Below, piece by piece: positions 37,260 through 61,556 of a stretch of 64,000 nucleotides of DNA. Every line of letters starts with the position of its first letter. Within the stretch, counting starts at the first letter, position 1. The position numbers were made by a program, and so were the translations under genes. The notes beneath the pieces are model-generated. The model did not search any database and was not told the DNA's origin. It saw only the letters and a list, made by a program, of their open reading frames with translations. The stretch is from Hyperoplus lanceolatus (Eukaryota > Chordata > Actinopteri > Uranoscopiformes > Ammodytidae): assembly GCA_026929865.2 (NCBI GenBank), contig CM049403.1, positions 1,094,001 to 1,158,000 on the forward strand, written 5' to 3'.

Positions 37260-37524
37260 GGGGAGAGTGGGGTGAGATGTGCCACTTTTTATTCAAAGTG
37301 ACTTTAAAGTGAGGCCTTGACAGTAAAGTCTACAACTATAATATGTACATATATTTCAGGGTGTTGTGCATCCCTAGCAACAATAACTTTGGATCTGAAA
37401 TAAACTGTTTAAGAAATATAGCTTTCGGAAAAAAAGTTGTCTTGTGGCACAACTTGCCCCCGGTGTGGTGTAAGTTTTGCCTTTGGAGAGAATACCATGG
37501 GGTAAATTGTGCCATTGATATGTA

Positions 37525-39165: not shown

Positions 39166-39172
39166 GGAGCCC

Positions 39173-39310
39173 CTAAAGGGACATGGAGGAAAAAAACATT
39201 TTTTTGGTTGAAAAAAAAAAAAAAAAAAAACATGGAGGAAAAAAATGTTTTGGTTGGAAAAAAAATAAATCAAACTCGAGATCTCGACTTCAAACTTGAG
39301 ATCTCGAGAA
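39173..39310 (+). repeat. Left TIR with subterminal palindromes
   Basis: Terminal 33 bp match the right end. The CATGGAGGAAAAAA...TTGGTTG unit is present twice here (39191 and 39231). It is followed by CTCGAGATCTCGA and GAGATCTCGAG palindromes, then two AACTTCCGGGTCAGA repeats (39312-39350). Confidence 0.8.
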
Positions 39311-39365
39311 CAAACTTCCGGGTCAGAATTTAACTTCCGGGTCAGAGGAAAAACTAAAAACAACA

Positions 39366-42300
39366 ATGGAGCGCACACACCCGTGGGGGAGATTTATCGA
39401 CGTCTATTTCGAGCTTGGCCTCAAATATTTGGACATTAAATCAGTACTTGCCAGTAGGCACGGCTTCCACATAAGTGAGAGACATCTGAAGAGGATACTG
39501 CGAGAAAGGGGACACTCTCGCCGCAAGGCGTACTCTGACCTGTCGGTCCTGGTTGATTTTATTAGCGACCAATTGCAGTACTCTGGACAGCTTCACGGGT
39601 ACCGATGGATGTACGCTAAATGCAGGGAGCATGGACTGCGTGTGAGGAAAGAGGATGTGCGGTTGGTGTTGAAAGAGCTCGATCCCAGAGGAGTGTCACG
39701 AAGGCTTTCCAGACGTCTCAGACGACGAAATTACTTTTCTAGAGGGCCGAACTTCATATGGCACATTGACTCTTATGATAAACTTAAGCCATATGGCATT
39801 TGTATCAATGGAAGTATCGATGGCTTCTCAAGGAAAATGATTTGGCTCAAGGCTTACACAACAAGTAGTGACCCAAAGTTGATTGGAGGGTATTATTTAG
39901 AAGCAGTGCAGCGTTTAGGGGGCTGTCCCAGAGTTGTGCGCGGCGATCTTGGAACCGAAAATGGCCACGTCAGAGACTTTCAGCGTTTCCTCGTCCCCAT
40001 TCAGCCAGACTGCACCATTGACAGTTACTTGGAGGGAGCCAGCACCGCCAATCAAAGGATTGAATATTGGTGGGGTTTTCTCCGTAGGGAGTGCGTGGAG
40101 TTCTGGTTAACGTTGTTTGCAGACCTTAGAGACAACGGTTTCTTTGATGGTGGGTTTCTGGATAAAGGTCTCCTTCAGTTCTGTTGCATGGGACTCATCC
40201 AGGTGAGTCAATTAATTATATACATGTGAATGTGTGAGTGAGATATGAGGGGTCCGATTAGAGGAAGAAGAGGAAAAGTAGAAAAGGGAGATAGAGTTGA
40301 CAGAGAGGGGCATGAAAGAAAGAGACAGAGGTTGGGGGCGGGGGGGGGGATGAGGGTGAATGCTACAATGTTGTGCTTGATTTCATTTGATAGGCTAATC
40401 GCACTAGTGGACAGGTTGCTAATGAACAGATGCTGTCTTTGAGACAAAGAGGAGTGATGCACAACACGGCTTAAAAGGTTAAAAATTGCGGCCAGATGCG
40501 GTTAAAGTGGTCTTAAGTTATTGAGTCCAACCGCCACTTTGGCTGGTGAAGGATATGTGCTAATGCGGCTATTCTAGCGTCTAATGAACTTCACCGACGT
40601 TAACAAACGGGAAGGACACGGCTCATTACATAAACTCAGTTAAATTACCTCATTTCCTGTGCACCTTCACATTAAAAGCATCACATTAGCCAAAAGTGAG
40701 TTGACTTTTATTTTGAAGCAGATAAGAACAGGAAGTTAGCGCTTCACAGTAGCCTATAAACACATTTTGAAATAAGCCATGGAAGAACTAATGTTAGGCT
40801 GAGGCAGGCAGGCAGGCAGGAAAACAGGACCCAAATGCAAGACGTAAAACAAAAAGAGATTTATTGTCCAAAAACTAACAAAAAAAAAGCCAACAGGCGA
40901 ACAACCAGGAGAAACAGAAAAAACAAAGAACAGGCACGGGACAGACTCACCAACAGGAACAATGATTGCACAGGGAACAAAGAAACACTGGGGGTTATAT
41001 ACACACACACAAGACAGGGTAGACAACGAGAGACAGGTGAAACACATTAGGGGCGGGAACAGCAATCAAACAGGAGGGAAACTTGACAGGACATGGGGAG
41101 GAACAAGACAGACATACCAAAATAAAACAGGAAACACAGGGGATCACCAAAACAAGACACAACAAAGACAGACCATGACAGTACCCCCCCCTAAAAGGTC
41201 GACTTCCAGGCGACCAAAAAAGAAAAAGTCAAACCCAAACAGGGTGGGTGGAGGGGAGCCAGGAAGAGGGAACAAAAAAAAAACATGGCCTGGGGCAGAG
41301 CACAGGGGTGACTGGCTGGACAGGGAACTGGAGTGGGGCAGAATGGAGGGGTTTCAGGCGGCCGACCTGGGGGGTAAGCAGGGACACGGTAGGGAGCTTC
41401 AGGCGGACGGCCTGGACGGTGAGGGCTCAGTCCCTCTGGAGGCCTGCAGCGACGAAGACGAGGAACCCCTTCTGGAGGACAGCAAGGGCGGAACCACTCA
41501 GGAGGCCGGTGGCGACAAAGATGAAGGCGAGGGAACCCTTCAGGAGGCCGGCGGCGAGGGCGACATCCCCCTTCTGGAGGCCGGCGGCGAGGTCGACATC
41601 CCCCTTCTGGAGGCCGGCGGCGAGGTCGACATCCCCCTTCTGGAGGCCGGCGGCGAGGGCGACATCCCCCTTCTGGAGGACAGCAAGGGCGGAACCACTC
41701 AGGAGGCCGGTGGCGAAAAAGATGAAGGCGAGGGAACCCTTCAGGAGGCCGGCGGCGAGGGCGACATCCCCCTTCTGGAGGCCGGCGGCGAGGTCGACAT
41801 CCCCCTTCTGGAGGCCGGCGGCGAGGTCGACATCCCCCTTCTGGAGGCCGGCGGCGAGGGCGACATCCCCCTTCTGGAGGACAGCAAGGGCGGAACCACT
41901 CAGGAGGCCGGTGGCGACGAAGATGAAGGCGAGGAACCCTTCAGGAGGCCGGCGGCGGGGGCGACATCCCCCTTCTGGAGGCCGGCGGCGAGGGCGACAT
42001 CCCCCTTCTGGAGGACAGCAAGGGCGGAACCACTCAGGAGGCCGGTGGCGACGAAGATGAAGGCGAGGGAACCCTTCAGGAGGCCGGCGGCGAGGGCGAC
42101 ATCCCCCTTCTGGAGGCCGGCGGCGAGGGCGACATCCCCCTTCTGGAGGCCGGCGGCGGGGGCGACATCCCCCTTCTGGAGGCCGGCGGCGGGGCGACAT
42201 CCCCCTTCTGGAGGCCGGCGGCAGGCAGGGGGCAGGGCCCCTCAGGCAGGGATAGGGGGCAGGGCCCCTCAGGCAGGGATAGGGGGCAGGGCCCCTCAGG

Positions 42301-44954
42301 CAGGGATAGGGGGCAGGGCCCCTCAGGCAGGGATAGGGGGCAGGGCCCCTCAGGCAGAGATAGGGGGCAGGGCCCCTCAGGCAGAGATAGGGGGCAGGGC
42401 CCCTCAGGCAGAGATAGGGGGCAGGGCCCCTCAGGCAGGGATAGGGGGCAGGGCCCCTCAGGCAGGGATAGGGGGCAGGGCCCCTCAGGCAGGGATAGGG
42501 GGCTGGGCCCCTCGGGCGTTAACAGGGAGCTGGGCCCCTCGGCGTACAGGGGCTGGGCCCCTGTAACAGGGAGCTGGGCCCCTCGGGCGTTAACAGGGAG
42601 CTGGGCCCCTCGGGCGTAAGGGGCTGGGCCCCCCGGGCGTTAACAGGGAGCTGGGCCCCTCGGGCGGCAACAGGGGGCTGGGCCCCTCGGGCGGCAACAG
42701 GGGGCTGGGCCCCTCGGGCGGCAACAGGGGGCTGGGCCCCCGCAACAGGGGCTGGGCCTCGGGCGGCAACAGGGGGCTGGGCCCCTCGGGCGGCAACAGG
42801 GGGCTGGGCCCCTCGGGCGGCAACAGGGGGCTGGGCCCCTCGGGCGGCAACAGGGGGCTGGGCCCCTCGGGCGGCAACAGGAGGCTGGGCCCCTCGGGCG
42901 GCAACAGGAGGCTGGGCCCTTCGGGAGGCAACACGGAGCTGGGCCCCTCGGACAGGAACGGAGGAGGAGGCCCCTCGGACAGGAACGGAGGAGGAGGCCC
43001 CTCGGACAGGAACGGAGGAGGAGGCCCCTCGGACAGGCAAGCTATAGGGCGGTCCCCCTCTGGAAGGCGTAGAAGGCGGTCCCCCTCTGGAAAGCGTAGA
43101 AGGCGGTCCCCCTCTGGGAGGCGTAGAAGGCGGTCCCCCTCTGGGAGGCGTAGAAGGCGGTCCCCCTCTGGGAGGCGTAGAAGGCGGTCCCCCTCTGGGA
43201 GGCGTAGAAGGCGGTCCCCCTCTGGGAGGCGTAGAAGGCGGTCCCCCTCTGGGAGGCGTAGAAGGCGGTCCCCCTCTGGGAGGCGTAGAAGGCGGTCCCC
43301 CTCTGGGAGGCGTAGAAGGCGGTCCCCCTCTGGGAGGCGTAGAAGGCGGTCCCCCTCTGGAAGGCGTAGAAGGCAGGCCTGACTGCTAGCATGCTGGGGC
43401 TGGTAGCTAGCCTGCTGGGGTTGGTAGCTGGCAGGCTGGTTGCAGGGACCCGGGTCCTGAAGCTTGTTCCTGGAAGTCGGGGCCTGGGGCTTGCTGCTGG
43501 AGACCGGGGCCTGGGGCTTGCTGCTGGAGACCGGGGCCTGGGGCTTGCTGCTGGAGACCGGGGCCTGGGGCTTGCTGCTGGAGACCGGGGCCTGGGGCTT
43601 GCTGCTGGAGACCGGGGCCTGGGGCTTGCTGCTGGAGGCCGGGGCCTGGGGCTTGCTGCTGGAGGCCGGGGCCTGGGGCTTGCTGCTGGAGGCCGGGGCC
43701 TGGGGCTTGCTGCTGGAGGCCGGGGCCTGGGGCTTGCTGCTGGAGGCCGGGGCCTGGGGCTTGCTGCTGGAGGCCGGGGCCTGGGGCTTGCTGCTGGAGG
43801 CCGGGGCCTGGGGCTTGCTGCTGGAGACCGGGGCCTGGAGCTTGTTGCTGGAGGCCGGGGCCTGGGGCTTGCTGCTGGAGGCCGGGGCCTGGGGCTTGCT
43901 GCTGGAGGCCGGGGCCTGGGGCTTGCTGCTGGAGACCGGGGCCTGGAGCTTGTTGCTGGAGGCCGAGGGCAACTCGGGAGCTGGAGAGCATCCGCAGAAT
44001 GGATGGCAATCCAAACTTACCACCCCCACTCTGATAGTCCTTAAAGCCGGAGACGGCTGGTAGCTGGGACTCGGGGGCTGAGGCTTGAAACTGAACACCG
44101 GAGGCAGTGGCTGGAGGCTGGAGCGTGGAGGCTTAGGACGGTTGCAAAAATCTGGTGGCAGTGGCGTGTAGCTCTCGGGCCAAAAAACTGTGGGGTTGAG
44201 AAGCTCGACTGCCCACTCGGGTAAGGCGCCCTCCAACTCGGGCTTAGCAGCGACAGCCTTGTAAATACCCGCCAACACATACCCCTGCTCCCTCCTACTG
44301 GGAATGTTCCCCCAACCGTCCATGGCACTGATAATAAAAGATAGCATGTCCTCCAGCTCATGGCAAAAAAGAGCGTCTGCTGGGTCCAATCTGGGTGCAA
44401 TCATTCTGTTAGGCTGAGGCAGGCAGGCAGGCAGGAAAACAGGACCCAAATGCAAGACGTAAAACAAAAAGAGATTTATTGTCCAAAAACTAACAAAAAA
44501 AAAGCCAACAGGCGAACAACCAGGAGAAACAGAAAAAACAAAGAACAGGCACGGGACAGACTCACCAACAGGAACAATGATTGCACAGGGAACAAAGAAA
44601 CACTGGGGGTTATATACACACACACAAGACAGGGTAGACAACGAGAGACAGGTGAAACACATTAGGGGCGGGAACAGCAATCAAACAGGAGGGAAACTTG
44701 ACAGGACATGGGGAGGAACAAGACAGACATACCAAAATAAAACAGGAAACACAGGGGATCACCAAAACAAGACACAACAAAGACAGACCATGACAACTAA
44801 TCCCAAAACATTCACAACAACCCATTTAATTTATCCTAAATTGTACAAATATGTATACTTATTCATTTAATAGGATGTATTCAATGTTTTAAAGTTTGTT
44901 TTTAATTAAAAGGAAATGTTCTAAACATGTTTGTTAATATTAATATAATAATTA

Positions 44955-45011
<57 letters not shown>

Positions 45012-45602
45012 AATATATAGATATTAATAGTATTGTTCTATGGGGGGAAAATGAGACCAAGATGATATGCTCAAAGGTAATAGGAGCGACATGCAAGGGT
45101 TAGGGTTATTCAAGTTTTCGATCATACTGTGTGCTACAAAATTGATTTGTGCTACTGAATATTTTGCTTGCTAGCACCAGTCCTACCACTTAAAAAAAAT
45201 AAGCGTACAGCCCTAGATATGCATGTATAGTTCTTCTTTAATGTATTTACTATTTTTATATTCTTACTTTTAACAGGATGAGTTGGATGACACTGCACAG
45301 GTTTGGAACAAACACACCATCAGGCCATCAAAAAACCCTAACGTCCCCAGCGGTCGGCCGAACATGATGTTTGCATTACCTGACCTCTATGGGACAAGAG
45401 ACTTTTTTCCCCAATTGAAGATGGTGATTTTCAACTGTGCAAAGATGCATGTGTCTTTCGCCGAACCAAACCGTGTGATCCAGATCTATATGAACTATGC
45501 AACATCTTTATGGCTGAGTCCAATCTCACTCTACCAACAGATCCATATCAGGCAGTGAACGTGTACATGCACCTCAGAGAGGTCATCAGTGCATCTGTGT
45601 AG
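39366..45602 (+). CDS. IS3-like DDE integrase/transposase, two exons, frameshifted
   Basis: Exon 1 is 39366-40202 (279 codons, donor GTGAGT); exon 2 is 45277-45602 (acceptor TTTTAACAG), joined in phase 0. The ATG lies in AACAACAATGG. Residues 1-105 contain an IS3-type HTH_21 module (HGYRWMYAKCREHGLRV). The integrase core has HIDSYD (Asp135), VRGDLGTENG (Asp194) and NQRIEYWW (Glu233). The C-terminal part reads VWNKHTIRPSKN and VPSGRPNMMFALPDLYGTRDF. Near 45412 one base is missing in a T/C run; the downstream part (CDPDLYELCNIFMAESNLTL) is open in the -1 frame to TAG at 45600. The first intron is swollen by the LTR element at 40792. Expected to cut and join the element's ends. Confidence 0.8.
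40792..41180 (-). repeat. 3' LTR (left copy)
   Basis: 389 bp, identical by eye to 44407-44795. Contains TGTGTGTATATAAC on the minus strand, a candidate TATA box, and TTTATT-type poly(A) hexamers. Confidence 0.9.
41181..43380. repeat. Arrays of 27-bp and 33-bp tandem repeats
   Basis: 41557-42230: 33-bp units (GGAGGCCGGCGGCGAGGGCG core) in higher-order groups. 42231-42500: about ten 27-bp units (CAGGGCCCCTCAGGCAGGGA). 42630-42945: 27-bp units (GGCAACAGGGGGCTGGGCCC). 42950-43035: four 27-bp units (CCCTCGGACAGGAACGGAGG). 43042-43375: twelve 27-bp units (GTCCCCCTCTGGGAGGCGTA). All periods are multiples of three, so frames stay open on both strands. Confidence 0.9.
42590..44404 (-). CDS. Proline-rich repeat protein of the LTR element
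   Basis: From ATG just inside the 5' LTR (44404) the minus strand is open for 604 codons. The first 100 residues are non-repetitive (MIAPRLDPADALFCHELEDM, then ALPEWAVELLNPTVFWPES), possibly a Gag-like or other leader domain. The next part is about 18 copies of a nine-residue SSKPQAPAS-type unit, then twelve LLRLPEGDR units, then PPFLSEGPP and LPPEGPSPL units. No retroviral enzyme motif is present. It may be the element's only protein; whether it is made or used is unknown. The array count probably varies between copies. Confidence 0.55.
   Translation of the reverse strand: MIAPRLDPADALFCHELEDMLSFIISAMDGWGNIPSRREQGYVLAGIYKAVAAKPELEGALPEWAVELLNPTVFWPESYTPLPPDFCNRPKPPRSSLQPLPPVFSFKPQPPSPSYQPSPALRTIRVGVVSLDCHPFCGCSPAPELPSASSNKLQAPVSSSKPQAPASSSKPQAPASSSKPQAPASSNKLQAPVSSSKPQAPASSSKPQAPASSSKPQAPASSSKPQAPASSSKPQAPASSSKPQAPASSSKPQAPASSSKPQAPVSSSKPQAPVSSSKPQAPVSSSKPQAPVSSSKPQAPVSSSKPQAPTSRNKLQDPGPCNQPASYQPQQASYQPQHASSQACLLRLPEGDRLLRLPEGDRLLRLPEGDRLLRLPEGDRLLRLPEGDRLLRLPEGDRLLRLPEGDRLLRLPEGDRLLRLPEGDRLLRLPEGDRLLRFPEGDRLLRLPEGDRPIACLSEGPPPPFLSEGPPPPFLSEGPPPPFLSEGPSSVLPPEGPSLLLPPEGPSLLLPPEGPSPLLPPEGPSPLLPPEGPSPLLPPEGPSPLLPPEAQPLLRGPSPLLPPEGPSPLLPPEGPSPLLPPEGPSSLLTPGGPSPLRPRGPAPC
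43470..43960. repeat. 27-bp tandem array, about 18 units
   Basis: Unit GCTTGCTGCTGGAGACCGGG plus seven bases; A/G variants at one site alternate (GAGACC / GAGGCC) in blocks. Encodes the SSKPQAPAS repeat on the minus strand. Confidence 0.92.
44407..44795 (-). repeat. 5' LTR (right copy)
   Basis: Identical by eye to 40792-41180. On the minus strand it starts TGTCATGGTC and ends CAGCCTAACA. Confidence 0.9.
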
Positions 45603-46459
45603 GTCAGAAGTATTTAGTTGTGTCTTGTGTTGAGCTTCGAAGTGGCAGGATTTTTTGGTCACTTAAGTTATTTACCTTGGTGTCCTTTTCCTTGATAAGT
45701 TTCCTTTAAAGTCATAACTCAACATCTCTAGCTTTTGGCAAATGTTCTAGTCCTTTAAACAATATTTTAGAAACACAGAAATGAAGGGGGGGGGGCTTTA
45801 TAGACAATCCTGAAACAGGTAAATAAAATGTGTATCAATTTTAGAACTTTACTTGTAACAAATGTGTCACTTTTTTCAGTTAGGATTGTATTTAACAAAA
45901 AGGTATAACTGGCTTCAGTTACTAAATGTGAATACTTATTCTGAGTCTGTCATGATAAAATATCATTGGATTTGGATTTGATGAGACCAAAGAAATGTAT
46001 GTATCTATCGAACTCTGAACTTTTTATGGCCAATCAGTACAAATACTGACATGTTACAGACAGGAAATTATCTGAGCAATTACAACCTGTGTTTAAAATA
46101 CTGAGAGATGGGTTAAAAAATGACAACACACGCTATTCATGTTTTTGTTGAGACTGGAACATTTTTTATTACTGTAACTATATTGCTATCTTGTATGTAA
46201 TTCTGGTGTGGAACTCTGAATAAACAAAAAAATGTCAAACATGTTTGGTGCTGTTTCCTGGTATTTTCAGGCCACATTTTACACTGGCCACATTAGCTAG
46301 ATGAACAACTTAACAATTAATTAATAATTGTACTTTTTCAAGAACAATTGACTTAATTGTTCTTGTAATCAGACTAGTATTACTTTTCATACCATGACAA
46401 GTTCCTGCAGTCTTCTTCTAAATGTCACAAGATGTTGCTGCGATGACAAGACAGCTGAT
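45603..46459 (+). other. Downstream of the integrase gene
   Basis: Probable 3' UTR: AATAAA in CTGAATAAAC near 46210. A segment at about 46330-46392 is inverted at 53092-53150. Otherwise AT-rich and featureless. Confidence 0.45.
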
Positions 46460-47097
46460 TGTATACCAACCCTTTCTCATCAAAATTACGTTCCCAGAGG
46501 ACTATTCGGCATTCTCAATTACGTTTGACCATTTACGTATTTTGTCCGTGATTACGTTTTTATGAACATATTCGGCATTCTCAATTACGTTTGACTGAAA
46601 AACGTATTTTGTCCGAAATTACGTTTTTATGAACATATCGCAAACAAGTTCGTTCTCAGCCTAGAGCTGTTCAGGATGCTCAATTACGTTTGGCTACAAA
46701 ACGTATTGATTACGTTTTAATAAACATATCGCATACATTCGTTCTCAGCCTATTTTTTGCCATTTATTTACCTCTAGGCTTATGTTTGGTTGAAGTGTGC
46801 ATTGTCTGGTCGGCTGCCTGAACTACAGCGCTGCAGGAAATTAATATGTTCCATAGATATGTTCACATGTTTCTTCATTCATTCATTCATTCATTCAAAC
46901 AAACTGGTGAAGGCAATCAACTTCCGACATGGCCACGCCCCCTTTGGGTGGAAAACAAAGCGATTTTGACTATAATGCAAAATTGCGGTCCAAAACAGCA
47001 CAAAAAGAAAACGATCAGAGATAAATAAGTTAAAATTTAACCGACAGACACAATGTTAAGATCCTTTACAACAACTCTGCCAGCTAGATAACGTTAA

Positions 47098-47358
47098 ATG
47101 ATTAATTTGATCAATCTAAAACTATGTGTGTCTAGTCTCTCAGCATCAATCTGGCGCAATGATCCGACCCATTGGCCAGAGATATCATGCCCTGATGTAT
47201 ATATTCACCTCACTGAGTCTCTATGTAAGCTGATTACACGTGAACTAATTGTTCGTTACGATAGCAAACTCCCACTGAATGCAGAGCGCAGCCGGGAGCT
47301 TCCTGCTGTCATACAGCCCTTCTTTAGGGGAATTTTTGGGGGCATGGCAAAGGAATAA
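47098..47358 (+). pseudogene. Small ORF in the left-only insert, unrecognised
   Basis: 86 residues with an acceptor-like TGTCTAG shortly before IWRNDPTHWPEISCPDVYIH and later RSRELPAVIQPFFRGIFGG. The W-DP-WP-PD-YxxL pattern recalls an N-terminal segment seen in some fish transposon proteins, but I cannot name it. It could be a captured exon or a chance ORF. Confidence 0.3.
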
Positions 47359-47604
47359 AACCATGATGTTTGTTTTTTACTTTGTAAACCACAAAACAGC
47401 TCAGGACATTGCAGATTTGAGCTATAACGCTTATTTTGAATGATCGCGCTGTCTTTGAGTACTGCCACGAGAGTTCTGTCTAGATGACGTATTGCCGACC
47501 TGAGGAAGGGTGACGTCAGACGCACGCCCCTCTACAAACCAATCAATGTCGAGGAATGTCACGTGACGCGGAACGAGCCTATAGCGGCAGCCCTGAGCTA
47601 CGAA

Positions 47605-48279
47605 GAGCATAAATCGTTGTGAGATGATCATTGTTGTTTGTGAGAAATGCAACACAATCGTCACTCAGTAAATGTGCACGATGTAGTTTGATGGTTATCA
47701 CGAATAAGGAGTTGTAGGCGGCCTTTACAGTTAAATAAGCAGGACAACTACAACCATATACCCACTTTGCTTGTCTTTTTACCTCTGTATAACCTTGTGG
47801 ATTAAATTACTTCTATTTTCTTCAGTATTTTACATTAAATGATCTTTGAAGTAAGATATAATTCACAACTTTTTTATATATATATATCTCACCTGCACAA
47901 TATGTTGCCTTTTAAAAAATGTTTTATATTTTATATTTCTGTGGCCAATGTTCTTTGTTGTTTTGATTGTGCAAATAAATTAAATCTAATCAAAAGCATG
48001 GTGGTGAATTGTAGGTGTGTTTAAATGTAAAATTGTACAATCTTCACACTCTCAACATTAGCACCTTTCCAGCAATGTATTCAGTTGGTGTTCTTTACCG
48101 CAAGGTTGATTTTATGATCAATTTGAAGGCCCAATATGGAAAATTAAGCTTTTTGTTTGCTCATTTGTTTTCTTGTGGAAATAGTAAACCAAAAGGTGTG
48201 TCCTTCAGAGATTATAATACAGAACCCATATGCATAGGCGTTGTTTAAATATACCTGCATGGATGGATGGACTTATAGA
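47605..48279. other. Interior of the 6.5-kb element, no gene seen
   Basis: AT-rich, with short ORFs lacking motifs. Confidence 0.4.
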
Positions 48280-48730
48280 TGGATAATGTACTTTATTTAT
48301 TGCCATAGGGAAAGTGTGGCATTGTAGTAGCAGTTATTGTGGATTGTATCAGGAATGACTTTCTGTAGTGGTCAAATAGCTGAAGGTGATGCTGTCCATC
48401 ATCTTCAGCAGCTTGTGCATTATCATTCTCTCCACAACCAACTGGGCTTAGTAACAGGTTAATAAGGATTTGCTCATGAAGTAGAGTCTGCGCTGTCCCT
48501 TCATGCAGTCTGTTGTTTAATTAAATGCCCAGGTTTCTGTAGCCCTCCATCAACTCAACCTCTTCTCCCAGAATGGAGATTTAGCCTAGTCCTCCTGGTC
48601 CTCCCAAAATCCATATCCATCTCTCAACCTTGGTTAAATTTAAGAGGTGTGTAGCTCCTACCATGCCCGAACACTACTGTCCACCTGTTCCCTGTCCCTG
48701 TAAACTGTCCTGTGAACTGCACACAGAACT
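48280..48730 (-). mobile_element. Degenerate Rex1/Babar-like LINE fragment
   Basis: The + strand reads like the reverse of the 3' reverse-transcriptase region of these elements: TACTTTATTTATTGCC tail, ATGCTGTCCATCATCTTCAG, CAACCTCTTCTCCCAGAATG and GTCCTCCTGGTCCTCCCAAA. Many stops. Assigned by recollection of the family's reverse-strand wording, so tentative. Confidence 0.5.
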
Positions 48731-49348
48731 GACACACCTTGCATCTGCTGAATCATCTGAATATTTATTTAAAATAGGCCCATGTGAAAGTGACAGGTGC
48801 TAATTGAGGGATGTGAAATACAAAGGCAGTTTGAACAAAATAGGCTAGAGTCATTGGAAAAACTGTTATAGAGGGATCTTAACCTTGCAGATTAAATCAG
48901 GGCGCTGTCAAGGCTTCCTCGCCCAATGCTACACCACAGGTCCAGCGCGATACATACGTGGAATGTCGCTGCCCGTATGAAAAGAACAAGAATAAATCTC
49001 TTATCAATACAGGTGAAACTCGAAAAATTAGAATATCGTGCAAAAGTTCATTTATTTCAGTAATTCAACCTAAATGGTGAAACTAATATATTATATAGAC
49101 TCATTACATTCAAAGTGAGATATTTCAAGCCTTTATTTGTTATAATTGTGATTATTATGGCTTACAGCTTATGAAAACCCCAAATTCTAAATCTCAGAAA
49201 ATTTGAATATTACATAAAATCAATAAAAAAAGGATTTTAAATACAAAAATGTCGGCCCTCTATAAAGTATAATCATGCATATGTACTAAGTACTTGGTTT
49301 GGGCCCCCTTTGCACAAATTATTGCCTAAATGCGGTGTGGCATGGATG

Positions 49349-49436
49349 TAAGTAAGTAAGTAAGTAAGTAAGCTTTTATTTATATAGCGCCCTTCACAGA
49401 CCAGGGTCACAAGGCGCTTCACAATGCGCTTCCAAA
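49349..49436 (-). mobile_element. LINE 3' tail with (TAAG)n
   Basis: Six TAAG units followed by CTTTTATTTATATAGCGCCC and CAAGGCGCTTCACAATGCGC. GGATG lies on both sides. The opposite arm of the foldback shows the uninterrupted sequence, confirming an insertion. Confidence 0.7.
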
Positions 49437-50348
49437 GGATGCTATCTGTCTGTGGCACTGCTGAGGTGTTATGGAAGCCCAGGTTGCTTTGATAGTGGCC
49501 TTCAGCTCCTCTGTATTGTTGGGTCTGGTGTGTATCATCTTCCTCTTGACAATAGTCCATAGTTTCTCTATTGGGTTCAGGTCAGGAGAGTTGTCTGGCC
49601 AATCAACACAGTAATACCATGGTCAGTCAACCAGTTACTTGTGGTTTTGGCACTGTGGACAGGTGTCAAGTCTTGCTGGAAAAAGAAATTCAGCATCTCC
49701 ATAAAGCTTGTCAACAGACAGAAGCATGAAGTGCTCTAAAATCTCCTGGTAGACAGCTGGTGGTGACTTTGGACTTGATAACACAGTGGACCAACACCAT
49801 CAGATGACATGGTGCCTCAAATCATCACTGACTGTTGAAACTTGACAGTGGTCTTCAAGCCCCTTGGATGTTGTGCCCCTCCACTCTTCCTCTAGACTGT
49901 GGAACCTTGATTTCCAAATGAAACGCAACATTTAATTTGGATCAGTGATGATTTGAGGTATCATGTCATCCGCTGCTGTTGGTCCACTGTGTTATCAAGT
50001 CCAAAGTCACCACAGCCATCTACCAGAAGATTTTGGAGCACTTCATGCTTCTGTCTGTTGACAAGCTTTATGGAGATGACAATTTCCATTTCCAGCTAGA
50101 CTTGGCACCTGCCCACGGTACCATAAACCACTGGTAACTGGTTGACTGACCATGGTATTACTCTGCATGAATGGCCAGACAACTCTCCTGACCTGAACTC
50201 CATAGAGAAACTATGGACTATTGTCAAGAGGAAGATGATACACACCAGACCCAACGATACAGAGGAGCTGAAGGCCACATCAAAGCAACCCAGGGGCTTC
50301 CATAGCACCTCAGCAGTGCCACAGACTGATAGCATCCATGCCACGCCG

Positions 50349-50349
<1 letters not shown>

Positions 50350-50388
<39 letters not shown>

Positions 50389-50512
50389 CCTTTATTTAAC
50401 CAGGAAAGTCCCATTGAGATTAAAAACCTCTTTTTCAAGGGAGTCCTGGCCAAGAGGCAGCAACAAGTTACATGTTCACTCACAATAATACACTCACAAC
50501 ATATAGAGGCAA
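50350..50512 (-). mobile_element. Retroposon 3' end with long poly-T
   Basis: About 38 T, then TTTATTTAACCAGGAAAGTC and CTTTTTCAAGGGAGTCCTGG. A common fish LINE 3' end of unnamed family, antisense here. The other arm of the foldback lacks it. Confidence 0.65.
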
Positions 50513-50826
50513 TATTTAGGCAATAATTCATGCAAAAGGGGCCCAAACCAAGTACTTAGTACATATGCATGATTATACTTTCTAGAGGGCCGACAGTTCT
50601 GTATTTAAAATCCTTTTTTTATTGATTTTATGTAATATTCTAATTTTCTGAGATTTTGAATTTGGGGTTTTTATAAACTGTAAGCCATAATAATCACAAT
50701 TATAAAAAATAAAGGCTTCACATATCTCACTTTGTATGTAATGAGTCTGTATAAGATATTATTTTCACCTATAAAGTTGAATTACTGAAATAAATGAACT
50801 TTTGCACGATATTCAAATTTCACCTG

Positions 50827-51217
50827 TATATCATGCCAAGTGTGTGGTGGACAAACCGCCGTCAAGACCACTTACCATTAAGACAGGGGACAATATACTG
50901 AGTCAACTGCATATGCAGAAAATAATAAACACTGCCACACCACACCGCAAACACTGATTAAGCACTGTTCATAAGACTGCCTAAAATTCTACCTTTTTAA
51001 GGTCAAAATCATGAATAAAGCAATCTTTAAACTACTCCCATTTGAGTAACTGGCCTACTCCTTCCAAATACTTTCAGTTGCAGGATTCACATTCAATATG
51101 CACCTAGTTTTATATTATGTGTAGGCTATGCACAATTTATAGCAACATTTAATATCATTAACTAAAAGAAAACAACCAAATCCCTGTCAGGGTAGGCTAC
51201 AAGATGTGACACACGCA

Positions 51218-51271
<54 letters not shown>

Positions 51272-52227
51272 TTGTAGAGTACTGCTTTAGTAAGTTCAAG
51301 AAGCCTATTCAATGAAATTTTAAACTGTACATTTAATTGTTTTATAATTTCATGTATAATCCGCCACATATTTGATCAGAAACTTTAAATTATACAACCA
51401 CAAAGGCTATAAAACACATTTTTCTTACAGAAATAGTTTCCCTAGCCTACATGCTTTAAGGTTTAGGGTAGGCCTATAAAGAATGTGTTCAATTCAAGTT
51501 ATTTTATTAATTTTTTGGTAGTGCAGCATGTTTCTGTAAGTGGTTCCATTATTCCTAAGGGCCCTTATGATGTTTCTGTGTGGAAACGGGGACGTTTCGG
51601 AGGAGGGGAATAATGTAACCTACTTCCTGTTAAGTTTTTTTTATTATGATGGGGCAGAACGGAAGTGTCAGCCGTGTGAACATGTCTGACTTGTGGTTTT
51701 ACGGCGGAGGCCCTGAATTGTAAATGGAATGCGCCCTGAATCGGCAGACACTCTGATAGGAGTCGAACGGGTCCACCCAGCCCTAAAAAGGATGATGGGA
51801 AATGTAGGATTACATAGCAACGGTGGTAAATACGTCAGCAAACTAACCAAATAGAGATCAGATACTCCCAATTACCGAATATAATGATATTCTGATGTAT
51901 TTCTCGCTAGATATGTTTTCAAAACATATGTTTATGCACTTACTAGCTGAAGTGTGACGTATTTGTGTCACCATGATAACCCTTGACTTCAAAAATTTGC
52001 TCTGGGAAAAAAAAACTCGGCGGCGGGTGGAGGGAGGGAGGGAGCGCTCTTGTCAGCTGTGTGTGTGTGTGCTATCTTTGATTGTGTCCAGTTGATCAAC
52101 AGCTTGGCACGTAGCCTATTTGTGTACCGAACATTTCTTGAGAATTAGCCTATCAGACTTCAGACAGATCATATGAATTCGCAATATCAAGATTATGAAA
52201 ATAAAGTACATAGGTCTCGCTAGAAAT
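50827..52227. other. Interior of the 6.5-kb element, no gene seen
   Basis: A CGCA/CA microsatellite at 51211-51269. A moderately GC-rich patch at 51640-51800 and another at 52010-52060 show no ORF of note. Confidence 0.4.
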
Positions 52228-52974
52228 CTTTTTAGCTCAGGGCTGCCGATAGGCTCGTTTAGCATTCCTCGATACTGATTGGTTTGTAGAGGGGCGTGCG
52301 TCTGACGTCACCCTATTTTCCCTGCAGCCCTGTGTAGTTCCGTAGTCTAGTTTAACGTTATCTAGCTGGCAGAGTAGTTGTAAAGGATCTTAACATTGTG
52401 TCTGTCGGTCAAATTGTAACTTATTTACCTCTGATCGTTTTCTTTTTGTGCTGTTTTGGACCGCAATTTTTTGCATTATAGTCAAAATCGCTTTGTTTTC
52501 CACCCAAAGGGGGCGTGGCCATGTCGGAACGTCGAATTCCTGTTTGAATGAATGAATGAAGAAACATGTGAACATATCTATGGAACATATTAATTTCCTG
52601 CAGCGCAGTAGTTCAGGCAGCCGCCCAGACAATGCACACTTCAACCAAACATAATCCTAGAGGTAAATAAATGGCAAAAAATAGGCTGAGAACGAATGTA
52701 TGCGATATGTTTATTAAAACGTAATCAATACGTTTTGTAGCCAAACGTAATTGAGCATCCTGAACAGCTCTAGGCTGAGAACGAACTTGTTTGCGATATG
52801 TTCATAAAAACGTAATTTCGGACAAAATACGTTTTTCAGTCAAACGTAATTGAGAATGCCGAATATGTTCATAAAAACGTAATCACGGACAAAATACGTA
52901 AATGGTCAAACGTAATTGAGAATGCCGAATAGTCCTCTGGGAACGTAATTTTGATGAGAAAGGGTTGTGTATAC

Positions 52975-54295
52975 AGTAGGGGGTGCGGTGCGGTCGTCCT
53001 GCCGGTTCAGGTAGGATGACCTGAAAAAAAATCTCTTTCACCCCACCAAAATAATATTAAAAAATCCAAAATAACAGTCAAAACATGTCAACTTAATGAA
53101 AAGTAATACTAGTCTGATTCACAAGAACAATTAAGTCAATTAACTATTGTAGAAAATGTGGGGGGAGAAAAAAAAAAAGAAAGAGACACACGGATTACTG
53201 TTTAAACTCAATATTAACCATTTGCATCATAAAATGACATGAAACAACTGCATTATTAATGGGTATTAACTATGAAAACTAGTGCTGTATTGTTAAACCC
53301 ATGGTTTAACATCGCAATGTTCTTTTTGGCCTAGCAAACTGTCGTTTTTTAACATGCTGTTGCAACAACTAGTAACCTTAAAGATAAAACACCAAAAACT
53401 ATCCCTGCTTTCCAATACCCATACAATCAACAATTTAGTATAATAGAAAAAAGATTTAGGATGTCCCGATTATTGTGGCCAGATTTAGTATTGTTAGAAA
53501 TACCCGGATGTCTACTACATCCGGCCGAGATTTTTAGTGTTTTAAACAGCATCCTATTTGAGTGATTCTGAGCCACAATCCAGTGCACACCGGACGTGAC
53601 GTCACATTGACGAAGCCTCTATATGAAAACAAACGGGGATGCAAGGGATATAAAAGAGGCAAGATCAAGGCACAATATTATGATGAAATAAATAAGTAAA
53701 AGCATGTCCAAAGTGTATGCGTACTGCATCCTAAGTAGATTCTTAGTATGTAGAATAGAAAAAAATCGAGTATGCGATTTGGAACACAGGGTATACATGT
53801 AACTCGCAGTTAAGTGACTGTTCATTCAAACTGAACATTTTATTAAGTATAACTTTACATTAAAACATTAAAATCATTTAACTGGCAAAACGAAAAAACG
53901 TCAAATAAATTTTGACTTTTATTTGGAAGCAAAGCCGGAACCTAGCTTTTCTTAGCTTCCGTCACAGGTAGCCTCTTCCGTGTGTGACCCTGGGACTACG
54001 CGGTGAAAGAACAGAAACAAAATCTTGTCATTTGCAATAGGAATACTTGTAACACTGCGCTCACACTAAAAACTTAATGAACGTTAGTGGCGGCCGGCAG
54101 TCATTCATTTTCACTTTCCTTACGAAGGGCGACTGGAGCACCTTGGCTGCAGCAGCGCCATAGCAACCACTGAGTGCACACAGGCGTATAGTGTGTCCAC
54201 ACACAGTCAATGACAACCAACAATTTTTTTTTTTAAATTAAATTAAAATAATATTACAACTTGTATTATCAAGTCATATAAGACTGCCCAAAAGT
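52975..54295. other. Between the 6.5-kb element and the HECT gene
   Basis: Contains the inverse of 46330-46392 at 53092-53150 and a minus-strand AATAAA near 53840 that could end the HECT transcript. No coding sequence. Confidence 0.45.
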
Positions 54296-55358
54296 TTAAA
54301 GTATGTCCATATTCAAGTAGTTGCTGGACAGCATGTTGTCAAACTCAGTGCGAAATTCAGGGTATGAACCGTAAGTGGACGGTACTTCAAGGGTAGCTCC
54401 ACAGGTATGACCAATGGGCCTTCTGCCCAGCCCGGTTTCAGCGTTGAAGCAAACCAATATTTTGTCAACACATATGACAGAAGACCCAGTGCAGAAACGC
54501 AGGATTTTTTCTGCTTGGGTTGGTCCAGCATTTTTCACATAACGTTTCAGGTGGTTAAAGGTTGTCTGTTCTTTCTGAGACAGCACCACTTTTGATGTTT
54601 CCAACAGTTGAAACACTCTTTTGCCTGTGGCCTTCTTTGACTCATATAGAGACAACACACTTTGCTTGTCTGACAACCTTATCTGTACAGGTGCCATGGA
54701 TGTGGAGAAGCAATCGAGTATATATTTTGGCTCTTGGAGAATGGCTTTGTGAGCCATTATTTTGATTGCAGGCTCCATGTTGTTCTTTGGAGGTAGGATA
54801 TGGGAACCCATCCTTGTGAAAAGGTCAAGCAATTCCTCTTCATCACTTTCCTCCATTGTGCCCTTGAGAGCTTTTTCAACAGCTGATCTCTCAACAGAAG
54901 GGAGGTATTCGAGAAATGAGCTCATCAGGATGTCAGTATCAACTGAGTCAATTCCATGGATGCAGGCTAAAATGAAAGCCTTTGAAAGCGTCACTGGCAT
55001 GACACCATGTTCGAGGAATCCTTCATTCAACCTCAGAGAAATCTGGCCTCAGCTTTGGAACTCGCTCTGATTCCCCTTCACACTGTTCAAGAAACTGCTC
55101 CCAGAATGCAGTGTACACTTCCCTTGACACTCCATCAGCATCAATAGCTTTTTCATTGACAAAGTCCATCTTCAGAGTCACATTCAAAATGCTGCTGTCC
55201 ATAAATACATCCACAAGATCAGCAACCACCTTCATCCTGCAAATTGATGCTCGTCGTGGACTCTCTGGATTTCCGGAGTTGCCAGCTGAGGTTGATGAGA
55301 AAGGTTGGCTGTATGAACTTGACGGGAAATCTTGTGGGGAGGAAGTCCGTCCACTGTC
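54296..55358 (-). CDS. HECT gene exon 5 (HECT domain)
   Basis: The acceptor CCCGCAG is followed by GACAGTGGACGG. A Ser/Pro-rich linker, then the HECT N-lobe and C-lobe. 1063 nt, not a multiple of three, because of the frame break at 55024-55034 between FSEVE and GFLEHG. Confidence 0.8.
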
Positions 55359-58300
55359 CTGCGGGAAAAAGACAATACACATTGTGAAAAGAGTGGCCAA
55401 TGAGTGAAGGGCGACTGTGGCTCAGTTGGTTGAGCGGGTCGGCCGATGATCAAAGGGTTGGAGGTTCGATCCCCGCCCTGCCACCTGTCATAGTTGTTGT
55501 GTCCTTGGGCAAGACACTTAACCCACCTTGCCTCGTGTGAATGTCGATAGTTAGCCTGCTATGTGTGTGTGAATGGTAACGTGTAAATGGGAACAGGTCT
55601 CCCTTGCAAAAGAGTCTTCGGACTCAATGGGATAAACCTGTATAAATAAAGGTTAAAAAAAAAAAAAAAAAAAAAGGAAAGACCCACATATTAATACTTG
55701 TTTGTATGTTGGTGTGAGAATACACAGTAAATTTTGAAGTGTTGAAATAACACTAAAAGAGTTAAATTTAACACTATTTCCGAGTGTATTTGGTCCCACT
55801 CAGAATTGGAGTTAAATTAACTCTTTTCAAAGTGTTAAAATTTTAGAGTTAAATTAACTCAAAATAGAGTTAAAAATTAACACTCGTATACACTGTATAG
55901 TGTTATTTAAATGTAACACTAAAGGTTAAACAACTCTCTAGAGTGTTAATATTATTCCCAGCAGTGTTAATAAATAACTCTTCTGTGATAACAAATCAAC
56001 TCTGATGGTGTTAATTTGAAAGCTGATTGACACTGCATTGAGTTATTTGAAGGTAATACTGCACAGTAAAATAACTCTGGCTAGTGTTGATGTTACACAC
56101 TACGTGTTGAAAAGTTACTCTATTGCAGTGAAAAAAGGGATGAACCTGGACTAAATGTTTGTTATGTTGTTGTTTGCACCGTGAGCGAAGGGGATGTTAT
56201 ATTTCATTGGGTAGATGTGTTTCATTCCATATATAGGTTTACTATGTCCCCTATTTGTTAAAATGCTTAACATAGAGAGCAGCTTTCGTTTTTACTTCAA
56301 AACACTTGTCACAAAATATCAAGTTCAATGGAATGATTAATTTCTATTTAAATTGTCTCCTGAGCTGAACTAGGGATCTGGCTTAAGATGTCCACAAACC
56401 GTTTTGTTATAACCAAAGAAACAACGGTTAGTTCACACAGAGATGTTTAATCTAAACAAAATGCATAGTCAGGTAATGGAATGAAACATCCCCTTCACTG
56501 AGGGTGCAAATAGCAACATAACAAACGTGAAGAAAGGGGTGGGCGGAGCTTTATAGAGTACTTTCTACACCCCGTCTTTTAACTACCGAAATTGACACCA
56601 ACACTAGGTGGCATTCTACTCCAGCTGTTGTTATATTAACTCAGATAGAGTTAATGGAGTTTGACACTGCATATTTAACACTGGGGAATTTACTGTGTAG
56701 TGTATTTTGGATTAGTACACACCCCTACAGACACCTACACATATTTTATTTTATTGTCTGAAGTCCTTCTTTTGACTTCTTCAGTTTAACAGTCATTCTG
56801 CTTGTTATTTGTTTAATTTTGAAGTAGACATTGTGTTCCATTTGTCTTACAAAGGCATAGAATGTGTCATGTAGTACCTCATTTCCGCCACAGGGTGGAT
56901 TTGACCTGTTATTGTACTCTCTGTCCTGTGAAACCTACACATGTAGTGCTGTACTGAGACGGATGGCGGACAGAAACATGTCTTAAAAAATGTGTCGCTA
57001 TGTCTGTGTATATTTAAAGAGAATCTATTAAAAGCAACAACTCTATATAAATACAACTCTTCGAGCCGCTCTTGAGTTTGATTATTCAAGTGTGCTACAT
57101 TGGTGTCAAAGTACAAATAATGTTGGAATGCTATTTCTACTAATGAAGCTCGAAAGCTTCCCTTCATTACCCTCAAACAGCACACCGTCAGTTTATAACG
57201 CAGGCTATCACATTTCTATATCCAAATATGAGTATGTGAATGTATTTTGAAAGTGGATTTGAAACACAATGAATCTACTTCTGAACATGATCTCCCTACT
57301 TGTATCCTTTTATACCATCCAGATACACAATGTTGGGAAAAAAATGCAACGCTGAACTTAATTATATCTTAACAGTTCTCTAAAATATTATACTAGTTTA
57401 AATAATGTGTTCATGGTTTCTTGTAGTGCTTTATCTTACTTGTGCAGTTTGCAATGCTGCCTTATGTATGGACTGCACATTTGGTGTAGGCAGGCCATTA
57501 GCTGAAGACAACGGGAGGGTTATATCCTGAATAGGTTCTCCACTCAGGTCGACACTCTGAAGAATGAATTAAGAATACAGTATCATTTGACAGCAGACAC
57601 TTTGACCTACATGTATAATATGTGATTGCAGATTGCAATCTATAAAAACTTTCTAAACGAGTCTTCTTCATAAGCCAGTGTTCTCTTGAAATCCAGGAAC
57701 ACTGGTGAGATGGTAAACATTCCACTTACATTTTTATAAAATTAAGAAAACAGAAAAAAATAAAAATCTACATAGGAGCAGGGCGCTGAGGACGCCATGT
57801 TGCACCGCCATGTTTCTACAGTATCACAGTATGGACAAACTTAAAATTTTTACTGGTTTTAATACCTGTATTACTATTTGTACTTCCTTTGCTTATTTTA
57901 ATCACATTACCTGTGTGACATCCTCATTGTTGACAAAATTAAATGTTATGACATCTGTCTCATCATAATTTGCTCCACCAAGGTCATCTTCTGGATCCCA
58001 CTCAACAGTGTCTGCCTCATCAGAGTTAGACTTCGATTCTGGAACTGCACTGGTCAGATCAATAGTTTCAAAGCAGGAGTCAGGGACAGCAGAAGAAGGC
58101 TCGAGATGATTCAAAACATCATCATCACTTGAATCAGTATCCTGCCCCTGGCCGAAGTGGGTTTTTGTATTGTCTTTTGGAGTTGAATGAGCAGGATGTG
58201 ATTTTGTTGAACCAGTCACAATCTCTGATGTGCTTTTATGTTTTTTGGACCTTGGTTGCATCTGGAAAAGCAGGTTCTATAATGAAAGAAATCACATTTA

Positions 58301-58445
58301 CTATTTTTTAAAGCTGTTATTTCAAATATGGCAGGGTGAAACACGTTTTCACAATGTATATTAAATAGTGATAAAAAAATGTATTGCCCAAGAAAGCTCC
58401 ATTACTCTATTAAGAGTAATATTTTAATATGTTTCAGATGTAATT

Positions 58446-58518
<73 letters not shown>

Positions 58519-59848
58519 CTACACATGTACAACAATCTATTTCCATCAGCCACAAACCTGATCAGTGATGTCGCTGTGTGCTGGCCCAGGCTCCAGGTCA
58601 GCAGTAAATGCTTCATCTGCATCAATGGGAGTTACATCCTCATCTGAAGTGTCATCATCTAAGGACTGATGTGTTCCTTGTTTTTTGGTGCATATGTAGA
58701 ATCTAAGCAGCTTTAACTTTATCTGCTCGTAAAGACTGCCAACAGACACGTCTAAAGCAATCTCCTTCCTTTTAAAATCACAGACAACAATATCAAAGTC
58801 TTCCACTCTGCCCTTCGTCGAGACCCCATCTGGGAAGAACAGTTGCTTTCCCATTTCCAGGATCTGAGACACATGTGACGCTTTGTCCATTGTCGTGTGC
58901 CTTGTCTCCCCTCCATATTGGGTCCGCACTTGACGGTATTCATTGCAAGTAAAATTAAGCCAGCCAATCTCAATCTTTCTTGTAGCCTTTTTTCCATTAC
59001 ATGTCTTCGGTGTCATCATATCCTCTGCTTTTCTCTCCAAGAGACATGACTTTGACACTCCTTTTGTCTTCATTTTCTGTGCTCCTATTTTTGATCTTAT
59101 TTTCTGTAGAAGCGTCTCTTTATCGGTGGTGCTGGTGGATTGTTGAGAGAATGAGAGGACAGCTAATCTGTCCCCATATGACGTGATGTACTTTGCCATT
59201 TGCTCGTCGCTCATGATGGCTAGCACTGCCTTGTCAACCTGTAAATATAAGAAGAAATGCTTAATATGCTTATTTTAAACATAATTCTCACACACACACG
59301 CGTGCACACAGACACGCACGCACGTACACACACACACACACCCAGAGATGGAAATTAACTTAGGGCAAAAAGAAACTGTGGAACTGTGCAGCGCACTTGC
59401 ATCATGTTTATTATGACGAATGTATTAAATATGCAAATTCGATCGGACCTGACTGGAAAGTATTACCCGACACAGTGGCGGGCGAAGTGACACAATTTAC
59501 ACGCCAGCACGCAAATCTACCTGCTTAGTTATTGATTTTGTATAAAGACCATTTACTAGCAGTAGTGTTTTCAATGGTAACAATGTATGACAGAGATAAA
59601 ACCCACATAGCTACTCATAAAGCACATTAAAATGTATCTGAAGCTAATTTACAACATCTCTAACAGCGTTGGACTAGCATAGGCCTACATCAGAGCAGGG
59701 AAGCTATGAGCGCTATTCTCACGTGACATTAACGCTAGTCCAATTTCTCTTAAATTAAGTTCCTGCCCACCTTGTCTCTTTGCATTCGCATGATGTCCTC
59801 TCTTGGGACCCCTCTGGACCGAAGGAAATGCTCCAAATCCTCCTCCAT
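54296..59848 (-). CDS. HECT-type E3 ubiquitin ligase of the giant element, five exons, frameshifted
   Basis: Exons 59848-59771, 59238-58558, 58261-57911, 57556-57440 and 55358-54296 all join in phase 0 at GT/AG sites, about 760 residues. Exons 1-2 read as a SAM-like unit (FLRSRGVPREDI, IMSDEQMAKYITSYGDRLAV) and then an unnamed conserved region (WLNFTCNEYRQVRT, LFFPDGVSTKGRVEDFDIVV). Exon 3 is acidic with ETIDLT, a probable SUMO-interacting motif at about residues 318-323. Exon 5 holds a HECT domain (DADGVSREVYTAFWEQF at its start). The catalytic Cys is in GHTCGA, 34 residues before the end MDIL, the normal HECT spacing. Near 55024-55034 a small deletion shifts the frame, so this copy is broken. 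Resembles fish G2E3-like proteins. Role in transposition unknown. Confidence 0.75.
55409..55677 (+). mobile_element. tRNA-derived SINE with poly-A tail
   Basis: GGGCGACTGTGGCTCAGTTG (A box), GGAGGTTCGATCCCC (B box), then GGGCAAGACACTTAACCC, ATAAAGG and about 20 A. In the last intron of the HECT gene, antisense to it. Confidence 0.85.
55722..56698. mobile_element. ACACAGTAAATT-TIR element rich in TTAACACT motifs
   Basis: The left end ACACAGTAAATTTTGAAGTG is inverted at the right end (to 56698) as ACACAGTAAATTCCCCAGTG, with TA outside. The left 400 bp are packed with AGTGTTAA / TTAACACT and GAGTTAA words on both strands. Non-coding. Confidence 0.7.
56699..57439. other. HECT gene intron 4, remaining sequence
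   Basis: AT-rich, with no supported feature besides the donor at 57439 (GTAAG on the minus strand). Confidence 0.5.
57440..57556 (-). CDS. HECT gene exon 4
   Basis: 117 nt, phase 0 both ends. The acceptor TTCTTCAG is followed by AGTGTCGACCTG; the donor is GTAAG. Encodes a linker (SVDLSGEPIQDI, NGLPTPNVQ). Confidence 0.65.
57911..58261 (-). CDS. HECT gene exon 3
   Basis: 351 nt, phase 0. Basic start (QPRSKKHKS) then acidic runs (DTDSSDDD, DEADTVEWDPEDD) around the SIM-like ETIDLTS. Donor GTAATG. Confidence 0.7.
58449..58518 (+). repeat. (CA)n microsatellite
   Basis: About 34 CA units in HECT gene intron 2. A second CA/CG-rich run lies at 59288-59341 in intron 1. Confidence 0.95.
58558..59238 (-). 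CDS. HECT gene exon 2
   Basis: 681 nt, phase 0. The acceptor ATTTACAG is followed by GTTGACAAGGCAG; the donor GTTTGT follows GATCAG. Carries the second half of the SAM-like unit and the conserved region ending LLRFYICTKK. Confidence 0.75.
59771..59848 (-). CDS. HECT gene exon 1 (coding part)
   Basis: 26 codons from ATG to GACAAG, donor GTGGGC. Residues MEEDLEHFLRSRGVPREDIM start the SAM-like unit. About 215 bp from the right end of the transposon. Confidence 0.7.
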
Positions 59849-59924
59849 CAGTATTTTCTTGTGTGCAGTTTCCCGTAGATGAATATGAGTCTGTTGCATG
59901 AGTGAGGCAGACGCATGGGCAGAC

Positions 59925-60064
59925 GTCTCAAACTCGAGATCTCGAGTTTGATCTCGAGTTTGAAGTCGAGATCTCGAGTTTGAAGTCGAGATCTCGAGTT
60001 TGATTTTTTTTTTTTTTCCAACCAAAATTTTTTTTTTCCTCCATGTCCCTTTAGGGGCTCCGTA
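59925..60064 (-). repeat. Right TIR with subterminal palindromes
   Basis: Inverse of the left end. Five overlapping CTCGAGATCTCGAG / TCGAGTTTGA units at 59932-60003, then an A/T run and the terminal 33 bp. More palindrome copies than the left side. Confidence 0.8.
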
Positions 60065-60211
60065 ATATATATCTCATAAACTGTAATGTGAGACAAATCC
60101 ATTAGACAATCACTTATTATAGGTTTATTTAAAGTAAATATTTTACAAAGATTGAGGGACAATTTTCTTAAACAAGGCCTAGCAGATCTAATGGTTTTAC
60201 CTGCAAAGCTT

Positions 60212-60385
60212 ACAATGACAAAGTCACCATCATCATATTTCTGGCCATCTGAATTCTCATCAGTGGTGTCGTTAAGTGGAATGGAGAGGTCAGTCTCTTC
60301 TGAGCTACTGTAGACAATCACTTTCTTTTGGTGACCAGCGTATACAGCCATGCCAATGGCACAACTCTCAGAAATTGACTTGGCA
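60212..60385 (-). pseudogene. Coding remnant GMAVYAGHQKKV, copy A
   Basis: A minus-strand frame with GMAVYAGHQKKVIVYSSSEE, an acidic stretch and GDFVIVSFAG followed by a GTAAAA donor-like site. The same frame is in copy B at 61383-61556. Probably the C-terminal part of the element's own ancestral protein; not identified. Confidence 0.45.
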
Positions 60386-60689
60386 CTAGCTGCTCCGCCC
60401 TTGTAGAACCAAATGCCACCTGGCATATGTGATTCCCCCTCCATTTCTGCCTCTAAATCAAGGCTCAAAACCCATCTGGACACCCTGGTTTTTCCTCCCC
60501 ATTAACTATACTCTTCTGCACTATATCTTTGTTTATATGTGGATATCTGGGCTTTATGTCTTTTATTTTTGTTATTGTTATTTTACCTTAATTTTTTACC
60601 TACTGAATTCACTATGTTCAGCACTTAGGACAGTGCAAACTGTTATAAATGTGCTTTTATAAATCCATTTTACTTACTTACTTACTTAT
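60386..60689 (+). mobile_element. L2-like LINE 3' end with (CTTA)n, in copy A
   Basis: A frame ending in the LINE ORF2 C-terminal pattern (APPLWNQMPP-like, KSRLKTHL), then a 3' UTR ending CAAACTGTTATAAATGTGCT and (CTTA)4-5. Shared with copy B, so inserted before the two copies separated. Confidence 0.6.
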
Positions 60690-61382
60690 AACTCTCCCCA
60701 GGCCCTCTGGCACAAATCACCCCAACCCCAGAATTTTGGATAATAAGCATGATGCAGCAGTTTAGGGCTGACATTATGCTAACTATATAGACACAAAGTG
60801 TAGCATACTAAAGCACTAAAACATGTGTCAAATGTTTTCAAACGTGTCTATAATTGTTCAGACACAATAATCAAAAAACCTTGATCATGGAAATTTTACT
60901 TTGAAAGGCAAAAACAGTTTTTTGAGCTTAAATGTGCTTATATCTTATTCCATGTGTCTCACTTCTTTACAGGATGAGTCAAATGGATGGCTCTTCTTAA
61001 ATATGTGGTCACATTTCCAATTTCTTCTATGGTTTTCTAGAAACAAGGGGTGGCACAACTTCCCCACTGGCACAACTCACCCCACTCTCCCCTATACAGT
61101 ACAATAAAGCTTTGCTGCAAAACTTTTGCGTTATCTTTGTAAACTGTAGGGGAAGGTGGGGTGATTTGTGCAACTTTTTACTCAAAGTGATTTTAAAGTC
61201 AGGCCTTGACAGTTATGTCTCCAACTCAAATATGTACATATATTTCAGGATGTTGTGCATCCCTGGCAATAAAAACTTTGGATCTGGAATAAACTGTTTA
61301 AGAAATATAGCTTTCGGAAAAAAAGTTGTCTTGTCGCACAAATCACCCCACGTAGTGGGGTGATTTGTGCGTCATTGTGTCA

Positions 61383-61556
61383 CAATGACAAAGTCACCAT
61401 CATCATCTTTCTGGCCATCTGAACTCTCATCAGTGGTGTCGTTAAGTGGAATTGAGATGTCACCCTCTTCTGAGCTACTGTAGACAATCACTTTCTTTTG
61501 GTGACCAGCGTATACAGCCATGCCACTGGCACAACTCTCAGAAATGTACTTTGCAC
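61383..61556 (-). pseudogene. Coding remnant GMAVYAGHQKKV, copy B
   Basis: Near-identical to 60212-60385 (GMAVYAGHQKKVIVYSSSEE, then DDDGDFVIV). Here the frame runs into the CACCCCACGTAGTGGGGTG palindrome instead of the donor-like site. Confidence 0.45.

Follow-up and report, generated by a model that had tools for sequence, protein, structure and literature searches.

Ginger, Zisupton and similar DDE elements carry accessory genes of the ubiquitin/SUMO pathway, namely OTU and Ulp1 proteases. IS3EU, a Repbase superfamily near GingerRoot, is described as having TA..TA termini and usually 6-bp TSDs (PMC10045372, in the text available), and its presence in fish is reported in the accessible parts of two further papers (PMC12763893, PMC9945428). 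The closest described systems are the TET-bearing IS3EU families of rust fungi, for which the available text gives TAYGG..CCRTA ends, terminal inverted repeats (TIRs) longer than 30 bp and oppositely oriented transposase and alpha-kinase genes, and proposes that transposon TET genes aid escape from silencing (PMC12730594).

The locus analysed here lies in a 64,000-nucleotide stretch of Hyperoplus lanceolatus DNA, hereafter the window. Judged from its sequence features, it is probably an IS3EU-type transposon with two resident, convergent genes, of which the left one encodes an integrase-type DDE transposase and the right one a HECT-like E3 ubiquitin ligase. The termini and flanking repeats of the element are as follows.

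39157..39162, no strand: left ATATAT, sharing one base with the TA just after a Tc1 element (37525-39155)
39163..39315, plus strand: left terminal region, with a 34-bp exact TIR from TACGG, a poly-A tract and two palindromic CTCGAGATCTCGA motifs (39275, and 39295 with one mismatch)
59928..60064, minus strand: right terminal region, with a 34-bp exact TIR, a poly-A/T tract and three palindromic CTCGAGATCTCGA motifs (59933, and 59965 and 59985 with one mismatch each)
60065..60070, no strand: right ATATAT, at the start of a ATATATAT run

Exact inverted ends bound an element of 20,902 bp (39163-60064). These ends, TACGGAGCCCC... at 39163 and 60064, are identical for 34 bp before the first mismatch, beyond which similarity is imperfect through the poly-A/T tract and then the subterminal part. 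The sequence TACGGAGCCCCTAAAGGGAC occurs once per strand in the window, at 39163 on the plus strand and, as the reverse complement, at 60045-60064. The preliminary description had recognised the exact inverted ends and set the start at 39173; the true start lies 10 bp further out. Chance would not be expected to produce an exact inverted pair of 34 bp (about 1e-11 in 64 kb, by our own arithmetic with equal base frequencies); what matters is whether the two ends are those of a single element. The 13-bp palindrome CTCGAGATCTCGA, allowing up to one mismatch, was found twice at the left end and three times at the right end but is absent from the rest of the 64 kb, and this confinement indicates that the HECT-side end is of the same family as the transposase-side end. 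The ATATAT reported on both sides is indeed present, though in TA-rich DNA. Among 400,000 draws, 6-mers matched between random AT-rich sites of the window in 0.85% of cases and between any two sites outside the element in 0.04%; given the TA-rich surroundings and the 0.85% rate of random matches between AT-rich sites, the duplication is modest to weak evidence.

The left-hand gene, whose ATG lies 203 bp from the left end, encodes the predicted transposase.

39366..40202, plus strand: transposase exon 1, 279 codons, with a Clr5-like N-terminus and D135-D194-E233
40203..45276, plus strand: transposase intron 1 (gtgagt...taacag), which holds a nested LTR element
45277..45602, plus strand: transposase exon 2, with a frame change at about 45395-45410, then open to the stop at 45600-45602

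The integrase core matched Pfam rva_4 with 93.2 bits (cut-off 26, E 2.2e-26), while the N-terminus scored 19.5 bits against Pfam Clr5, under the cut-off of 22.3. Matches to the NCBIfam models IS3 (E 8e-4, 18.7 bits, cut-off 160) and IS481 (E 0.015, 14.8 bits, cut-off 224) fell far under the model cut-offs, suggesting that the protein is distant kin of these families and not a member. An acidic triad of D135, D194 and E233, with 38 residues from the second D to the E, was picked by eye. The sole PDB sequence match, to a ribosomal protein (E 0.68), was rejected. The frame break in exon 2 may reflect decay or an assembly error.

Together with the termini, these results support the IS3EU-like assignment made in the preliminary description. 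The TACGG..CCGTA termini have the TA..TA form of the superfamily and the TAYGG..CCRTA form of the rust-fungus families, the TIR exceeds 30 bp as in the TET-bearing fungal families, a 6-bp repeat, of modest weight in such TA-rich DNA, flanks the element, and the transposase is of the integrase-type DDD/E kind related to IS3/IS481, with its rva_4 core and its weak, far-sub-cut-off matches to those two models. As in the fungal elements, the transposase and a second gene are opposed; however, the available text describes theirs as an alpha-kinase, separated from the transposase by a TET/JBP gene (PMC12730594), whereas here the second gene is HECT-like and no TET gene was seen.

The right-hand gene runs inward from the opposite end on the minus strand.

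59771..59899, minus strand: HECT-like exon 1, holding the ATG
58558..59238, minus strand: HECT-like exon 2
57911..58276, minus strand: HECT-like exon 3, acidic and of low complexity
57440..57556, minus strand: HECT-like exon 4
54296..55358, minus strand: HECT-like exon 5, with an N-lobe-like part, a break, then a 250-codon frame with the HECT C-terminal part

Two convergent multi-exon genes near opposite ends had been proposed, and both are present; the first exon of the HECT-like gene had been placed 215 bp inside the right end, whereas its ATG was measured at 165 bp. The five exons, whose borders are the author's prediction from sequence alone, are all phase 0 with GT/AG borders and stay open for about 540 codons up to a frame break near 55025, past which the further frame of 250 codons runs to the stop. 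Five stretches of the same lengths, drawn at random 20,000 times, were never all open, a rough control since the frames and borders were author-chosen. HECT domains sit at the C-terminus of proteins, and HECT enzymes typically have their catalytic cysteine close to it. The frame in the last exon matched Pfam HECT with 21.6 bits (E 1.9e-4), just under the cut-off of 23.9, over 132 residues at the protein's C-terminal end, corresponding to positions 150-286 of the 306-position profile. In this region the cysteine of an HTC motif lies 34 residues from the end, a typical distance for the catalytic residue. The full read-through protein scored 18.4 bits against the same cut-off of 23.9. No PDB sequence matched the HECT-like frame up to E 10, no NCBIfam model matched the protein, and in this copy a complete bilobal HECT domain in an intact frame is absent, with the frame broken near 55025. 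AlphaFold predictions made with no alignment were uninformative for both element proteins (mean pLDDT 39.6 and 37.9). With a frame break in each gene, the present copy is probably non-autonomous.

The preliminary description of a 20.9-kb transposon is right as regards the 20,902 bp between the ends, but is misleading in that more than half of this length consists of nested elements. Three nested insertions account, by subtraction, for 11,504 bp and leave a core of 9,398 bp.

40792..44795, minus strand: nested LTR element in transposase intron 1, flanked by the 5-bp direct repeat ACTAA, with identical 389-bp LTRs at 40792-41180 and 44407-44795
42590-44680, minus strand: 696-codon tandem-repeat frame in the LTR element
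46460..52975, no strand: nested inverted-repeat element separating the transposase gene from the HECT-like gene, with arms of about 640 bp that are 95% alike
49025-50820: Tc1-like remnant inside the inverted-repeat element
55721..56699, no strand: MITE-like stretch of 979 bp in HECT-like intron 4, bounded by 26-nt terminal inverted repeats (TACACAGTAAATT...)

The identical LTRs and the ACTAA on both sides suggest that the LTR element is recent. It looks non-autonomous and very recent, and codes only for the long tandem-repeat frame, which is built of 27-nt and 33-nt units and in which no retroviral-type domain was found. The nested inverted-repeat element has TGTATAC at both edges, and the MITE-like stretch has the least certain bounds of the three. 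Between the convergent 3' ends of the two genes, two inverted copies of a sequence some 50 bp long (46346-46398 and 53090-53142) flank the nested inverted-repeat element; they may act as a hairpin terminator or represent a small, older element. In addition, two copies of a SINE-like repeat, roughly 140 bp long and 85% alike, occur in HECT-like intron 4 (55409-55544) and left of the element (36705-36848).

The HECT-like gene is most likely resident cargo, as IS3EU is matched by the termini, TIR and transposase and, with modest weight, by the 6-bp repeat, while the two opposed genes are laid out much as in the fungal elements. Residency is inferred here from one copy, and the cargo claim of the preliminary description finds its support in the anatomy of the present copy only. 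Exon 1 adjoins the array of motifs common to the transposase end, and window self-comparisons revealed no other transposon boundary around the gene. Weighing against the two-gene reading are the single copy, the breaks in both genes, the sub-cut-off HECT match and the weakness of the ATATAT repeat. The gene could instead be a one-off capture from the host or from another element, carried in one or a few copies and without a role. Such a capture would sit well with the single copy in hand, the broken HECT frame and an element that gathers insertions (three nested ones), of which the 6.5-kb nested inverted-repeat element exactly separates the transposase half from the HECT half. It is nevertheless considered unlikely, as exon 1 starts just inside the right end by the common motif array, mirroring the transposase, and the window self-comparisons showed no transposable-element boundary around the gene.

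The same mirrored arrangement, with a gene starting directly inside each end, argues against the ends of different copies having come to face each other by chance across an interval of ordinary chromosomal DNA in which an unrelated HECT-like gene happens to lie, as do the identity of the two 34-bp ends, their single occurrence each in the window and the ATATAT on both sides. Some room for a chance pairing is left by the TA-rich setting of the flanking repeat, which could itself be fortuitous, and by the failure to find an empty site within the window, where the flank repeats (the 87% left-flank copy, 37257-37480 versus 61146-61370, and the 91% right-flank tandem) miss the insertion point; it is the least probable of the readings considered. 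Only slightly more credible is a real right-hand gene that does not encode a HECT ligase and matches the profile through chance resemblance. The sub-threshold Pfam score and the lack of a PDB or NCBIfam match would be in keeping with this, but the 132-residue match covers the C-terminal part of the profile, falls at the C-terminus of the protein and includes a cysteine in the expected neighbourhood. The right-hand gene is therefore very probably HECT-like, and an IS3EU-type element in which it is resident remains the favoured reading of the locus.

Neither the element terminus nor the transposase matched any viral contig, and the HECT frame gave four pattern stretches in viral contigs, none of them confirmed. 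A search of genome contigs returned nine pattern stretches, of which one (L001) was confirmed; on reading of the frames it proved to be a short common stretch inside a membrane protein beside an ABC ATPase, and was set aside as spurious. The literature search, outside whose reach lay Repbase, Dfam and subscription papers, found no work naming both IS3EU and HECT and none that brings together the HECT domain, DNA transposons and Repbase, and an earlier Repbase note of HECT cargo is possible. What appears to be new here is the HECT-like cargo, seen in one damaged copy, while the IS3EU superfamily and its cargo-carrying habit are known; the available text of the literature examined mentions no HECT cargo for IS3EU. 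The accessory genes of Ginger and Zisupton likewise place components of the ubiquitin/SUMO world on DDE elements, but those are proteases, whereas the gene described here is ligase-like. Fish G2E3-type HECT proteins resemble the present protein in having a HECT-like C-terminus. A G2E3-like sequence is listed among unclassified repetitive elements of the fish Cottus, which fits a mobile HECT gene, though the accessible text provides no link to IS3EU (PMC5638112).

By analogy with IS3EU, the transposase would bind the TIRs, perhaps via the repeated CTCGAGATCTCGA palindromes, excise the element and join it to staggered target DNA, giving rise to 6-bp duplications. The ligase activity of the HECT-like protein and any effect of its gene on transposition, including the modulation of host control that the preliminary description raised as a possibility, are inferred; if active, the protein would ubiquitinate a host or element protein in trans. 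The simplest benefit of such a ligase would be degradation of a host restriction or repair factor, in analogy with the proposal made for TET in the available text of PMC12730594, while an alternative role could be control of the transposase level. It is conceivable, if somewhat less than probable, that an animal IS3EU lineage has fixed a HECT-type ligase as its second terminal gene, the counterpart of the fungal alpha-kinase, within a two-gene plan whose protein-modifying enzyme is swappable, and that this ligase directs host degradation against either a restriction factor or the transposase. If so, many of the fish HECT 'genes' annotated as expanded families would be transposon genes. Were HECT-like ligases standing parts of IS3EU, some of the expanded HECT families of fish would belong to mobile elements, and the superfamily would offer a third way for a host-acting enzyme to travel on a cut-and-paste element, in addition to the TET and alpha-kinase cargo of fungi.

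Scanning the window for Rfam families and tRNA genes gave no matches. To the right of the element lies a tandem duplication (60212-61096 and 61382-62276, 91%), and the 225-bp unit between its copies (61146-61370) recurs left of the Tc1 element at 37257-37480 (87%). Further left, broken Gypsy-like frames (28266-29751) show gag, integrase zinc-binding and Tf2-1-like SH3 matches. The Tc1 element at 37525-39155, which directly abuts the left end and has related copy arms at 30848-32344, retains an open transposase frame of 350 codons (37784-38836), suggesting recent Tc1 activity.
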